Source of the DNA: Brachybacterium sp. P6-10-X1
GTDB lineage: Bacteria > Actinomycetota > Actinomycetes > Actinomycetales > Dermabacteraceae
Assembly (NCBI RefSeq): GCF_001969445.1
Contig: NZ_CP017297.1
Coordinates: 3,968,001-4,032,000, forward strand
DNA length: 64,000 nt
Direction of reading: 5' to 3'
The number at the start of each line of letters is the position of its first letter. The stretch's first letter is position 1. Both the position numbers and the translations under genes were made by a program. The notes beneath the pieces are model-generated. The model worked only from the letters and a program-made list of their open reading frames with translations, was not told where the DNA came from and made no database searches. Positions 1-22,884 of this stretch are shown here, in pieces.

Positions 1-436
1 CGGGCTCACCGTCCTGGGCTCCCGAGTCGTCCTCCGTGCTCGCCGCGCCGTCCTGACCCGACCGATCGCCCGCCCCGGGTGTCCCCTCGGCGTCGGAATC
101 AGAGCTGTTCGTGTCCTCGGCCTCCGACGAATCGTCCGCCGTCCCGTCCCCGTCCGCTTGCGATGCGTCGTTCGCCGGGTCGGGGTTGCTCTTCGAATCA
201 CCGGGGACGACGCCCTGATCGGTCGTCAACTCGTCGACCGCAGGGACCTCATCGCTGGACACCGCATCCCCGACGTCCCGTGTCGTCTCCGCCACGGTCT
301 CGGCGACAGCGCCCTCGCACTCCTCCGATGCCGTTCTTGTGGACTCTTCCGATGCCGCCAGGGCCGGCGCTGCGGTGAGAGGGAGCGCGACAGCGACAGC
401 TGCGGAATAAGCACACAGGCGTGCACGCAGGCGCAT
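1..436 (-). CDS. Secreted acidic Ser/Asp/Glu-rich protein, 3' end outside window
   Basis: An open frame runs from an ATG (complement of 434-436) to the left edge without a stop, so 145 codons are visible. A Shine-Dalgarno stretch AAAGGGGGG lies at 446-454, nine bases before the ATG, which fixes the start. The N-terminus (MRLRARLCAY) is basic and followed by a hydrophobic Ala/Val/Leu core ending APALAA near residue 28, a good Sec signal peptide. The rest is low complexity, rich in Asp, Glu, Ser and Thr, with no recognisable domain. Such a region could be the stalk of a surface or secreted protein. The C-terminus (possible anchor or enzyme domain) is not seen, so no function is assigned. Confidence 0.7.
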   Translation of the reverse strand, partial: MRLRARLCAYSAAVAVALPLTAAPALAASEESTRTASEECEGAVAETVAETTRDVGDAVSSDEVPAVDELTTDQGVVPGDSKSNPDPANDASQADGDGTADDSSEAEDTNSSDSDAEGTPGAGDRSGQDGAASTEDDSGAQDGEP

Positions 437-7745: not shown

Positions 7746-7872
7746 GGGCGGGGCTGTTCCACCGCGGCGAGCCCATTCCCGGGGCGGGGCTGTTCCCGGG
7801 GTGGGCCTGTTCCACCGAGGCGGGCCTGTTCCGAGGGCGGGCCTGTTCCCGGGGTGGGCTGTTCCTCCGGCA
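7746..7872. repeat. Short tandem repeat with a 53-bp higher-order period
   Basis: Seven copies of a GGGSCTGTTCC core occur with the CTGTTCC part at 7754, 7773 (degenerate, CCATTCC), 7790, 7807, 7826, 7843 and 7860. Spacings are 19, 17, 17, 19, 17, 17, so three short units make one 53-bp unit repeated a little over twice. It lies upstream of the gene starting at 7664 and downstream of the hydrolase gene ending at 8047 is the adjoining GC-rich DNA, in the 382-base gap 7665-8046 that holds no gene. Confidence 0.8.
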
Positions 7873-19380: not shown

Positions 19381-19606
19381 GTTCTGTGATGGGTGGCGAC
19401 GAGGCCGCGACACGCCGTAGTGCGTCGCCCATTCCGCTGATGCGGATCGCTCATGGTGCGGATCCGTGGAACGGGCCAGCGTGTCGCGTCCGCGAGTGAC
19501 CGTCGGAGATCACCGCGCGAAGGCCGTGACCGTCCTCCACATCTCCGCGCCGTCCACACGCCGACCGCTCCGCGTGCGCGGCACGCTCATCGCCCCTACC
19601 GTCGAG

Positions 19607-19685: not shown

Positions 19686-20651
19686 GTGATGGCGCGAGGA
19701 GCGCGGGGTGAGCGGGGAGCACGCGAGAAGGGCGTGGTGCCCCCGCGACGGGTGTTCACACGAGCGGGACTTTTCAGGATGGGGGTCAGCGCCCGTCGGC
19801 TGTCCTCCTCGGAGTTCCGCAGGGTCCTTCCCGGGTGCTACACGCTCGAGGAGCACCCGGCAGATCTGCGAGAGGTGGCGCGGGTCGCCCAGCGTCATGT
19901 CGTTCCAGGCGGCCTCATCAGCCACGTCACGGCGGCCGAGCTCCTCCGCCTCCCGCTGCCGGAGGGCGTGACGTGGAAATCTGGAGAGCCGATCCACTGC
20001 ACCATCGAGCCCGAGCGCAAGAGGAACTCTGCTAGGGAACTCACGATCCATGTGCGCAGCGGACGGCACGCTCTCGCTCACGAAGGGGTCCAGATCGAGG
20101 ACCCACTCGGAGTGCTCCTGGACCTCGCGTCCGTGCTCGACCACGACGATCTCGTGGCCTGCATAGATTCCCTGGGATCACGGCGCCGCGAGGTCCAACG
20201 GATGTCCGTCGGTGCGATACGGGTGGCTTGTGAGAATGCGCGGGCACCCGGTGTTCGAGCGCTGAGGGCGGCGATTCGCGACGCCGGGGACTGGGTCGAC
20301 TCCCCGCGCGAGACCGCCACCCGTCTCCTGCTGCTCAGACATGGCTATCCGGAACCGGAGGCGAACTGGCCGGTCACGGATCCCGTCACCGGCATGGAGT
20401 ACTGGGTCGACCTCGCCTACGTTCAGCGGCGGATCGCCATCGAGTACGACGGGAAAGACCACTTCACGCCCGAGCAACAGCGCAAGGACCATCGCAAGGA
20501 TGAATTGCTCCACCGGCTGGGGTGGACGGTCTTGCGGATCACGGTCGAGGACCACCGGAATCCGGGAGACTTCTTCGCACTCCTCGATGAGCATATCCGT
20601 GCGGCGGCCTCCGAAGATGACGGAGCCGCCCCGGTCGATGCTGCACGGTGA
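19686..20651 (+). CDS. DUF559-type endonuclease-like protein with AbiEi-like N-terminus
   Basis: 321 residues. The first ~70 resemble the winged-helix start of AbiEi-like proteins in actinobacteria (RRVFTRAGLFRMGVSARRLS, FRRVLPGCYT). The C-terminal ~100 form a PD-(D/E)XK/Vsr-like DUF559 domain: YWVDLAYVQRRIAIEYDGKD supplies the acidic and EYDGK residues, followed by RKDHRKDELLHRLGWTVLRI. This suggests a metal-dependent nuclease fold. The target is unknown; many such genes are orphan. GAAGGAG at 19673-19679 precedes a GTG (19686) and an ATG (19689), either of which may be the start. The stop overlaps an ACGGTG hexamer repeat. Confidence 0.75.
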   Translation: MMARGARGERGAREKGVVPPRRVFTRAGLFRMGVSARRLSSSEFRRVLPGCYTLEEHPADLREVARVAQRHVVPGGLISHVTAAELLRLPLPEGVTWKSGEPIHCTIEPERKRNSARELTIHVRSGRHALAHEGVQIEDPLGVLLDLASVLDHDDLVACIDSLGSRRREVQRMSVGAIRVACENARAPGVRALRAAIRDAGDWVDSPRETATRLLLLRHGYPEPEANWPVTDPVTGMEYWVDLAYVQRRIAIEYDGKDHFTPEQQRKDHRKDELLHRLGWTVLRITVEDHRNPGDFFALLDEHIRAAASEDDGAAPVDAAR

Positions 20652-20680
20652 CGGTGACGGTGACGGTGACGGTGACGGCC
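20645..20680. repeat. ACGGTG hexanucleotide repeat
   Basis: Five perfect ACGGTG units plus a partial one, starting inside the last codons of the DUF559 gene (its TGA at 20649-20651 is within the repeat) and ending at the left edge of the 151-bp array. Confidence 0.85.
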
Positions 20681-21352
20681 CAGACACGCACCGTGGGCGC
20701 TGCCGGTTCCACCGTTTCGGCCCGCTGGTGAAGCGGATCGGTGGAATCGATGAGCGTGTTGCGGAGGCCTGGGCGTGAGGGGTGGCTGCAGAGGGTGGCC
20801 AGGTCGAGCGGGTGTGATCGCGCGGATTGGAGCGACACGCACCGTGGGTGTTGCCGGTTCCACCGTTTCGGCCCGCTGGTGAAGCGGATCGGTGGAATCG
20901 ATGAGCGTGTTGCGGAGGCCTGGGCGTGAGGGGTGGCTGCAGAGGGTGGCCAGGTCGAGCGGGTGTGATCGCGCGGGCTGGAGCGACACGCACCGTGGGT
21001 GTTGCCGGTTCCACCGTTTCGGCCCGCTGGTGAAGCGGATCGGTGGAATCGATGAGCGTGTTGCGGAGGCCTGGGCGTGAGGGGTGGCTGCAGAGGGTGG
21101 CCAGGTCGAGCGGGTGTGATCGCGCGGGCTGGAGCGACACGCACCGTGGGTGTTGCCGGTTCCACCGTTTCGGCCCGCTGGTGAAGCGGATCGGTGGAAT
21201 CGATGAGCGTGTTGCGGAGGCCTGGGCGTGAGGGGTGGCTGCAGAGGGTGGCCAGGTCGAGCGGGTGTGATCGCGCGGGCTGGAGCGACACGCACCGTGG
21301 GTGTTGAAGCGCCCTGGGTTCCGTTCCGAGTCTCAGCAAGGAGAATCGGAGT

Positions 21353-21667
21353 ATGCCCAAGAAGTTCAGTCCGGAGCTGCGTGACCGTGCCGTGCGCATG
21401 GTCTACGACCGCCAGGCACTCGAAGGTGGCCCACGATCGGAGTCGATCCGTGCTGTCGCGCCCCAACTCGGCGTTGGCATGGAGACGCTGAGGATCTGGT
21501 GCAACCGCTACGGGCCAGCCGAGCCCTCGGCCGGCCCCGCGGAGTCTCTCGAGGAGGAGAACCGCAGACTGCGTCGAGAGCTCGCCGAGTCCCGGCGGGC
21601 CAACGAGATCCTCAAGGCCGCCTCCGTGTTTTTCGCCAGGGAACTCGACCACCCCACGACGAAATGA
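21353..21667 (+). CDS. IS3-family transposase OrfA (helix-turn-helix subunit)
   Basis: 104 residues. Starts MPKKFSPELRDRAVRMVYDR, the IS3/IS911 OrfA N-terminus, then a helix-turn-helix region (SIRAVAPQLGVGMETLRIW) and a C-terminal heptad-rich helix (EEENRRLRRELAESRRANEIL) for multimerisation. CAAGGAG precedes the ATG. The stop TGA overlaps the OrfB ATG (ATGA at 21664-21667). A run GTTTTTC near 21629, in phase G_TTT_TTC, could support -1 frameshifting to make the OrfAB transposase. Confidence 0.95.
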   Translation: MPKKFSPELRDRAVRMVYDRQALEGGPRSESIRAVAPQLGVGMETLRIWCNRYGPAEPSAGPAESLEEENRRLRRELAESRRANEILKAASVFFARELDHPTTK

Positions 21668-22578
21668 TCGCCTTCATCGATAGGCATCGCGATCACTTCG
21701 GGGTCGAGGCCATCTGCCGCGTCCTGGGCGCGACGGAACGTGGGTTCCTCACCTCTCGCGGATACCGTGCCGCGAAGCAGCGCCCGGCATCGGCCAGAGC
21801 GGTCCGTGACGAGGTGCTCGTCGAAGAGATCCGTCGGATTCATGCCGAGAACTACGGCGTCTACGGGTATCGGAAGATGCATCACGCGATGCGCCGTGCC
21901 GGATGGGAAGTCGGCCGCGACCAGACCGCTCGGCTGATGAAAGCTGCTGGTCTGTGCGGGATACGCCGTGGTCGAAAGGTGTTCACGACGAGCCCTGCTG
22001 GTGGCCTGGACCGTCGTCCTGATCTGGTCGAGCGGAACTTCACGGCTGCCGGACCGAATCAGCTCTGGGTCGCTGACATCACCTACGTCCGGATCCCGTC
22101 CGGGTTCTGCTACACCGCGTTCATCACGGACGTTTTCACGCGAAGGATCGTCGGCTGGGCAGTGGCCACCAGCCTCCGCACTGAGGCACTGCCACTGCAG
22201 GCTCTCGAGCAGGCCCTCCAGACCTCCCCGGCAGAAGCGTCTCGGACTGGGCTGATCCATCACAGCGATAGGGGCAGCAACTACGTCTCGCTGGCCTACT
22301 CCGATGCGCTGATCACCGCCGGAGTCCAGGCCTCGGTCGGATCCGTCGGAGACAGCTACGACAACGCCCTGGCTGAGACCGTCAACGGCCTCTACAAAGC
22401 CGAGCTCATCCACCGACGCCGCACCTGGCCCTCAGCGACCCCCGTCGAGATCGCCACTCTGGACTGGGTCACCTGGTGGAACACGAAGCGCCTGCACGAA
22501 GCACTCGACTATCGCACCCCGGCCGAAGTCGAAGCGTCCTACACTCACCCCACGACGACCGCGCCCGCGACCGTCTAA
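21664..22578 (+). CDS. IS3-family transposase OrfB (DDE integrase domain)
   Basis: 304 residues from its own ATG; the reading frame is open upstream to 21499, in the -1 frame relative to OrfA, as expected for an OrfAB fusion made by frameshifting. The HTH_21-like region (YGVYGYRKMHHAMRRAGWEV) is followed by an rve integrase core with catalytic residues in WVADITYVRI (D), HHSDRGSNY (D) and DSYDNALAETVNGLYKAEL (E). All three acidic residues are intact, so it should be functional. Confidence 0.95.
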   Translation: MIAFIDRHRDHFGVEAICRVLGATERGFLTSRGYRAAKQRPASARAVRDEVLVEEIRRIHAENYGVYGYRKMHHAMRRAGWEVGRDQTARLMKAAGLCGIRRGRKVFTTSPAGGLDRRPDLVERNFTAAGPNQLWVADITYVRIPSGFCYTAFITDVFTRRIVGWAVATSLRTEALPLQALEQALQTSPAEASRTGLIHHSDRGSNYVSLAYSDALITAGVQASVGSVGDSYDNALAETVNGLYKAELIHRRRTWPSATPVEIATLDWVTWWNTKRLHEALDYRTPAEVEASYTHPTTTAPATV

Positions 22579-22812
22579 CCACGGAACGGAACCCAGGGCG
22601 CTTCAGTGTTGCCGGTTCCACCGTTTCGGCTCGCTGGTGAAGCGGATCGGTGGAATCGATGAGCGTGTTGCGGAGACTCGGGCGTGAGGGGTGGCCGCAG
22701 AGGGTGGCCAGGTCGAGCGGGTGTGATCGCGCGGGCTGGAGCGACACGCACCGTGGGTGTTGCCGGTTCCACTGATTCGGCCCGCTGGTGAAGCGGATCG
22801 GTGGAACCGGCG

Positions 22813-22884
22813 GGCGTGTCCGCCCACGCGGTGCTCGCCGGCGCGACGGGCGTGTCCATCCGCGCGGTGTTCGCCAGCGCGGCG
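22813..22884. repeat. Two-copy 36-bp direct repeat
   Basis: Two adjacent 36-base units beginning GGCGTGTCC at 22813 and 22849, about 80% identical by eye. They sit just right of the end of the 151-bp array and left of the reductase stop codon. Confidence 0.6.

Follow-up and report, generated by a model that had tools for sequence, protein, structure and literature searches.

Palindromes repeated with a period of 151 bp lie directly behind a gene for a DUF559 protein in Brachybacterium sp. P6-10-X1, and this layout raises the question of whether the array is an ordinary tandem duplication, a set of structured RNAs, a protein-binding array or a form of selfish DNA. The locus was analyzed within a window of 64,000 nucleotides, spanning positions 3968001-4032000 of the single 4.39-Mb contig of this genome, and its palindrome was compared across the genome, the genus and other families of the class.

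The 151-bp array in the window

The array is composed of six palindromes of about 40 bp, at 20705, 20856, 21007, 21158, 22614 and 22765, which recur with a period of exactly 151 bp, as the initial annotation had it; its accompanying features are collected in Table 1. The tandem repeat over 20683-21306 received a TRF score of 1220, with 99% matches. The inner units are most alike and the end units differ, also as first described: the units at 20834, 20985 and 21136 are 100% identical to the query unit, versus 97% for the first unit and 96% and 92% for the two beyond the insertion. The sixth element carries a canonical outer box and is the top match of the element model in the window. The array was correctly placed between convergent genes beside the DUF559 gene, which is encoded on the forward strand, with a ferredoxin reductase-like gene on the reverse strand at the other side.

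The insertion that splits the array was likewise rightly assigned to the IS3 family. It lies in array unit 5, is bounded by perfect 24-bp inverted repeats (21305-21328 and 22582-22605) and by a GTGT target duplication (21301-21304 and 22606-22609), and its open reading frames match HTH_Tnp_1 and rve. It is a later passenger that stands outside the palindrome system. An ALIL frameshift pseudoknot was matched within the IS3 element (window 21625-21721) with 46.7 bits, against an Rfam gathering score of 50. Elsewhere in the window, a 53-bp tandem repeat at 7746-7869 presents TTCCACCGAGGCG-like half-sites, and the element model gives no match there.

Table 1. Positions of the DUF559 gene, the palindromic elements and the insertion in the window
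Feature	Position	Core	Strand	Remarks
Upstream palindromic element	19405..19488	19432-19471	-	outer GACACGC and GCGTGTC boxes; 67.4 bits, E 8.5e-20
DUF559 gene	19686..20651		+	predicted AbiEi-like winged helix and Vsr/I-Bth0305I-like PD-(D/E)XK nuclease
ACGGTG hexamer run	20645..20678		+	3' end of DUF559 gene, directly before array
Whole 151-bp tandem array	20683..22808		.
Array element 1	20680..20763	20707-20746	-	element model
Array element 2	20831..20914	20858-20897	-	element model
Array element 3	20982..21065	21009-21048	-	element model
Array element 4	21133..21216	21160-21199	-	element model
IS3-family insertion	21305..22605		+	orfA 21353-21667; orfB region to 22578
Array element 5	22604..22672	22616-22655	-	element model; one side cut by IS3 insertion
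Array element 6	22740..22821	22767-22806	-	element model; 70.1 bits, E 1.2e-20

The palindrome is dispersed through the genome

A scan of the P6-10-X1 genome for TTCCACNGAT-N(6..34)-ATCNGTGGAA returned 14 places and its reversed control none; all 14 exact matches were 40 bp long despite the free gap length. When the gap was set to 20 and up to three mismatches were tolerated, 39 cores were obtained, compared with 0 for the reversed pattern. Taken together, the pattern scans, relaxed scanning and a model of the element (R1), built from this genome only, place the palindrome in at least 47 intergenic-type copies in the 4.39-Mb genome. Further full or partial copies of the 151-bp unit were found elsewhere in the genome by searching with the unit, and tandem copies of the palindrome recur at several other places with periods of 116, 141, 143, 168, 176 or 183 bp. 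The 151-bp array is thus secondary: a dispersed site has been amplified locally in tandem at several places, and the array is one of these. A stretch of about 140-150 bp of the array unit also occurs singly at G000:C1:3162484-3162625 and 2459678-2459801, with more than 90% identity, and the presence of this unit at three unrelated places is the best sign of copying within the genome. Apart from it, most copies have diverged from place to place, which is unlike what would be expected of a recently spreading element.

None of the 42 sites collected first falls inside a gene predicted with a simple gene finder. At 28 places where the orientation of neighboring genes was established with the same gene finder, about 13 gaps are convergent, 4 divergent and 11 lie between genes running in the same direction; in a small control of 21 wide gaps from the window, 9 were divergent and 4 convergent. 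Several simple origins or roles were rejected on these and related grounds. A transcription-factor operator is contradicted by the avoidance of divergent gaps, and a common function of the adjoining genes by the 54 neighbors examined, which fall into 87 Pfam families, none of those shown having more than two members. A phage or plasmid origin was discarded after IMG/VR yielded no exact match to the palindrome. The exact degenerate core was not found outside Brachybacterium in a species-wide exact scan, which may have missed near records.

A core of two half-sites flanked by outer boxes

The conserved element extends beyond the 44-base palindrome and measures about 80 bp with its outer boxes. 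Its 40-bp core consists of fixed dyad-symmetric bases around a free 4-bp centre, and an alignment of 28 independent places yields a half-site that reads roughly RYCSR-TTCCAC-CGAT-N-CG-NNY-CR, mirrored about the centre. The outer boxes read GAC[A/G]CGC and GCG[T/C]GTC; in most sites a spacing of 7 bp to one box is combined with 15-18 bp to the other, and in some both spacings are about 17 bp. As one turn of DNA takes 10 bases, the two spacings differ by about one helical turn.

Symmetry of this kind may reflect either a hairpin in RNA or the paired half-sites of a DNA-binding dimer. At the variable positions 7, 18, 0, -1, -3 and -4, pairing across the dyad is at the level of shuffled columns, and transitions on the oriented strand produced G.U and A.C combinations with no preference (35 vs 41). 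Some covariation is seen at positions 1 and 5 and in the outer boxes, giving a weak overall signal. Against shuffled DNA the core shows the stronger folding (z -3.4); as RNA, the complete 151-base unit does no better than its shuffles (z 0.10), and no Rfam family was matched besides the IS3 pseudoknot. For the most part, bases at symmetric positions change independently of each other, and the palindrome fits a pair of half-sites for a dimeric DNA-binding protein better than a hairpin RNA. Of the three options offered by the initial annotation, protein binding and selfish DNA are supported, in the form of a protein-bound selfish or REP-like population; a structured RNA is not supported by the evidence of pairing, G.U combinations, folding and the Rfam search. 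The question raised there, whether the DUF559 protein binds or cuts the palindrome, proved to be the pertinent one.

A predicted winged-helix nuclease beside the array

The AlphaFold2 model of the DUF559 protein (pLDDT 93) provides a candidate for such a protein. Residues 206-309 align with I-Bth0305I (Z 11.3, rmsd 2.6 over 95 residues), the nuclease part also aligns with Vsr (Z 9.2, rmsd 2.6 over 98 residues), and residues 12-201 align with AbiEi (6y8q; Z 8.2, rmsd 7.4 over 172 residues). The PADLOC model for AbiEi matches the protein as well (E 6.8e-7). Three residues, E209, E253 and H259, do not vary across 28 sequences, and D242 is almost constant. The predicted architecture is an AbiEi-like winged helix (approximately residues 12-201) fused to a nuclease of the Vsr/I-Bth0305I type (approximately 205-309) whose catalytic residues are invariant.

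AbiEi proteins bind two 23-bp inverted repeats located 3 bp apart, and Rv2827c binds repeats 13 bp apart (PMC7319586). In the Brachybacterium element, a half counted from position -4 through 18 has a length of 23 bp, with 4 bp between the two halves. Such a likeness in half-site length and spacing is suggestive, not a test. The DUF559 protein likely binds the half-sites.

Association of the palindrome with DUF559 genes in Brachybacterium

The closest relatives of the DUF559 gene share 52-66% identity with it and occupy the same position in seven other species (G036, G021, G003, G026, G025, G016 and G030), so that in eight species the neighbors are an aminotransferase gene and the ferredoxin reductase-like gene. 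Elements matching R1 bracket the DUF559 gene in the window, and likewise in G036, G003 and G021; in G030, where the contig ends at this point, an element is present on the visible side. The palindromes that flank the gene in G026, G025 and G016 differ in sequence.

Copy number follows the gene. Counting both strands, the median number of R1 matches is 18 in the eight genomes with a close DUF559 relative, versus 0 in 30 others (Mann-Whitney p 4e-5, or 1e-4 without P6-10-X1 itself; these p values are optimistic, given that the genomes come from a single genus and are not independent samples). Two genomes without a close DUF559 gene also have R1 matches, G027 with 18 and G009 with 12, both strands counted. 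Within the genus, 21 of 30 DUF559 loci (20 of 29 when P6-10-X1 is left out) have a palindrome scoring at least 12 within 400 bp, compared with only 24 of 183 control genes from G009 (p 1e-9). The association between DUF559 genes and palindromes is well supported, and the DUF559 protein is the probable partner of the palindrome.

The sister species G009 allows a comparison at closer range, its coding flanks being about 91-96% identical to those of P6-10-X1. The segment that holds the DUF559 cassette in P6-10-X1 (3987261-3990894) is missing from G009, where its flanks are adjacent, and the cassette is present in the seven other species; we therefore infer that G009 most likely lost it. With both strands counted, G009 has 12 model matches against 94 in P6-10-X1, equivalent to about 6 sites versus about 47. 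Several P6-10-X1 sites have no counterpart in G009, nor in G021 at the places tested there, a pattern that indicates either gains in the P6-10-X1 lineage or repeated losses. No clean 80-bp empty site was found, the P6-10-X1 inserts relative to G009 being variable and 170-460 bp long, and no target-site duplication by the outer boxes was seen by eye.

At two places where P6-10-X1 and G009 share a site, 0 of 40 recognition positions and 12 of 40 centre positions have changed, and the flanks are about 67-81% identical. This difference between recognition positions and centre suggests that selection acted on both sites during most of the period following the split. Cutting at the centre, read from hypervariability, was considered and rejected: the pair at P6-10-X1 position 2718642 looked hypervariable, but the centres of two further pairs are no more diverged than the flanking DNA. 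In a separate case, the counterparts of the gap behind an ABC-transporter permease gene (P6-10-X1 G000:C1:3487683; L184, L318, L321, L322, L323) contain palindrome families that differ between Brachybacterium species, as if the spot had been used repeatedly.

A candidate mechanism and its alternatives

We consider it probable, with a fair margin of doubt, that the array arose by local amplification of a palindrome that is dispersed in the genome and belongs to the adjacent DUF559 protein, by way of dimer binding, nicking or cutting, and copying through repair. The AbiEi-like winged helix would bind the two half-sites of about 23 bp as a dimer. The Vsr/I-Bth0305I-like nuclease might then nick or cut near the 4-bp centre, and repair of the break might copy the element into other intergenic gaps and build tandem arrays, these two steps being less certain than binding. 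On this reading, the palindromes would be mobilized by the DUF559 nuclease, in a manner comparable to RAYT and REPINs, with a resident, vertically inherited enzyme serving a non-autonomous palindrome population. Points against it are the divergence of most copies, the variable inserts with neither target-site duplication nor clean empty site, the retention of recognition bases at two sites in G009 despite the loss of the gene, the overall covariation, and the R1 matches in G027 and G009.

The same sites could instead serve the host, for instance in chromosome organization or gene-end insulation, and be bound by the DUF559 or another protein, selected and immobile. The contrast between recognition and centre positions at the two orthologous places would fit such a role, as would the strictly intergenic location of the 42 first sites and the excess of convergent over divergent gaps. 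The conservation test, however, rests on two usable orthologous sites, and a housekeeping role would be expected to keep copy number more stable than the range of 0 to about 47 within one genus; many places are moreover empty in the sister species and G021, and the same place holds different palindrome families in different species. We regard a host function as unlikely, yet deserving of more weight than the view that the DUF559 gene and its flanking palindromes form a mobile element of which the dispersed palindromes are solo ends or remnants. The latter is improbable: palindromes do bracket the gene in many genomes, and the entire bracket is absent from G009, but eight species keep the gene at a single orthologous position with identical neighbors on either side, so that it is vertically inherited, with loss in G009 most likely, and in P6-10-X1 neither a duplicate of the cassette nor a target duplication was seen.

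Two further readings have very little probability. Bidirectional terminators or structured RNAs would agree with the location of sites at gene ends and in convergent gaps, and draw some support from the folding of the core and the weak covariation. Terminators, however, do not need conservation base by base, variation at position 7 and at the flanking R/Y positions takes no account of pairing, outer-box spacings one helical turn apart suit DNA rather than RNA, and neither the folding of the 151-base unit nor Rfam, the IS3 pseudoknot aside, speaks for an RNA; hairpins of this kind are accordingly very improbable. Hardly credible at all is an ordinary local tandem duplication with no meaning beyond the array, to which the initial annotation would have reduced a unit found only here. 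Homogenized inner units are as expected from unequal exchange, but the palindrome recurs throughout the genome and across the genus and is conserved elsewhere, and only its local copy number is ordinary. Tandem duplication is refuted for the palindrome and stands for the length of the array only.

Relation to known systems

Amplification of a dispersed palindrome by a resident DUF559 protein, the reading that we prefer, has its nearest counterpart in REP sequences. These are short intergenic palindromes at convergent gene ends that flank a single-copy, vertically inherited enzyme gene, and their copy number follows that gene (PMC8049555, PMC3733652). The Brachybacterium palindromes share with REPIN-RAYT systems the intergenic location in tens of copies, the enrichment at convergent ends, the position around a single-copy, vertically inherited enzyme gene and a copy number that follows this gene. 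They differ in that the flanked gene encodes a PD-(D/E)XK DUF559 protein and not a Y1 tyrosine transposase, and in having a longer core with a free centre, outer boxes and much more diverged copies. No GTAG or CGTC tag, as defined for the families in PMC3733652, is conserved in the aligned sites or their flanks, and no RAYT is found in the families shown for the 54 site neighbors, the gene flanked in four genomes being DUF559. With neither of these two defining features, tag and RAYT gene, seen at the sites, the pair is not filed under RAYT-REPIN, although layout and population pattern are alike.

The AbiEi antitoxins of type IV toxin-antitoxin systems (AbiE; Rv2827c) have the same predicted N-terminal fold, and a likeness exists in their 23-bp inverted repeats with spacings 10 bp apart (PMC7319586). 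The DUF559 protein, in contrast, carries a fused nuclease domain, its repeats are located on both sides of the gene and genome-wide rather than in the promoter only, and no AbiEii/DUF1814 toxin gene lies beside the DUF559 gene in the eight species. With Vsr and the EDxHD homing endonucleases (I-Bth0305I), the protein shares the predicted nuclease fold and the conserved acidic and histidine residues, but it is not intron-encoded, has no link to Dcm, and its putative sites are palindromes dispersed in the same genome. MITEs are likewise small, non-autonomous palindromic units, in keeping with the one unit of about 150 bp at three places, but no target-site duplication was seen by eye at the outer boxes of the palindromes, and no parent transposon came up in the analysis. 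No literature linking DUF559 with palindromic repeats was found in a search of papers outside subscription, and there is a fair chance that the palindrome-DUF559 system merits its own category.

Other DUF559 genes and their palindromes

A second DUF559 paralogue, present in G009 and G010, is flanked by a different palindrome, GCGC-N3-GCTTCC-N6-GGAAGC-N3-GCGC. Four copies surround the G009 paralogue (2624620-2625471) and 33 were counted genome-wide, with 4 for the reversed control; around the G010 paralogue there are two copies, and 12 genome-wide, again with 4 for the reversed control. The second palindrome family also forms a tandem array, of four copies with an 82-bp period, at G009:C1:2025783-2026060 (L339). 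A strong palindrome of a third sequence type, CATGTGTGCGCTGAGGACCGATG..., was observed at L184:7862 and in other G009 stretches, and perhaps goes with a further DUF559 gene.

Beyond Brachybacterium, a palindrome scoring at least 12 was found within 450 bp of 24 out of 28 DUF559 loci from other families of the class, and 12 of the 28 are flanked on either side; in two of these genomes, positions placed at random gave a match in about 10-11% of cases. Most of the sampled relatives of the gene across the Actinomycetia are thus flanked by palindromes of their own, which suggests an undescribed partnership of repeat and nuclease. At most of the two-sided loci both palindromes have common arms. Dispersal outside the genus is only weakly supported, since in 200 kb sampled from each genome G131 presented one further copy and G211 no further copy of the half-site.

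It is a tentative proposal, for which we would put the chances somewhat below even, that AbiEi-like DUF559 proteins are resident nucleases throughout the class in Actinomycetia, each binding and copying its own palindrome family, as a counterpart of RAYT-REPIN that employs an unrelated enzyme. DUF559 proteins are common in these bacteria, where they have no known function and where many genomes of Actinomycetia encode several, and a cognate palindrome beside each gene offers a testable DNA target for every one of them. If the link is true, the dispersed palindromes of high-GC genomes gain an enzyme, REP-like systems will have arisen also around a nuclease that is not related to tyrosine transposases, and many matched pairs of protein and palindrome may reveal how nuclease and site change together. 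In G131, a genome from outside Brachybacterium with four DUF559 genes, the 200 kb sampled (L301, L303, L304, L306) contain several long palindromes with centres of 16-19 bases and differing arms.
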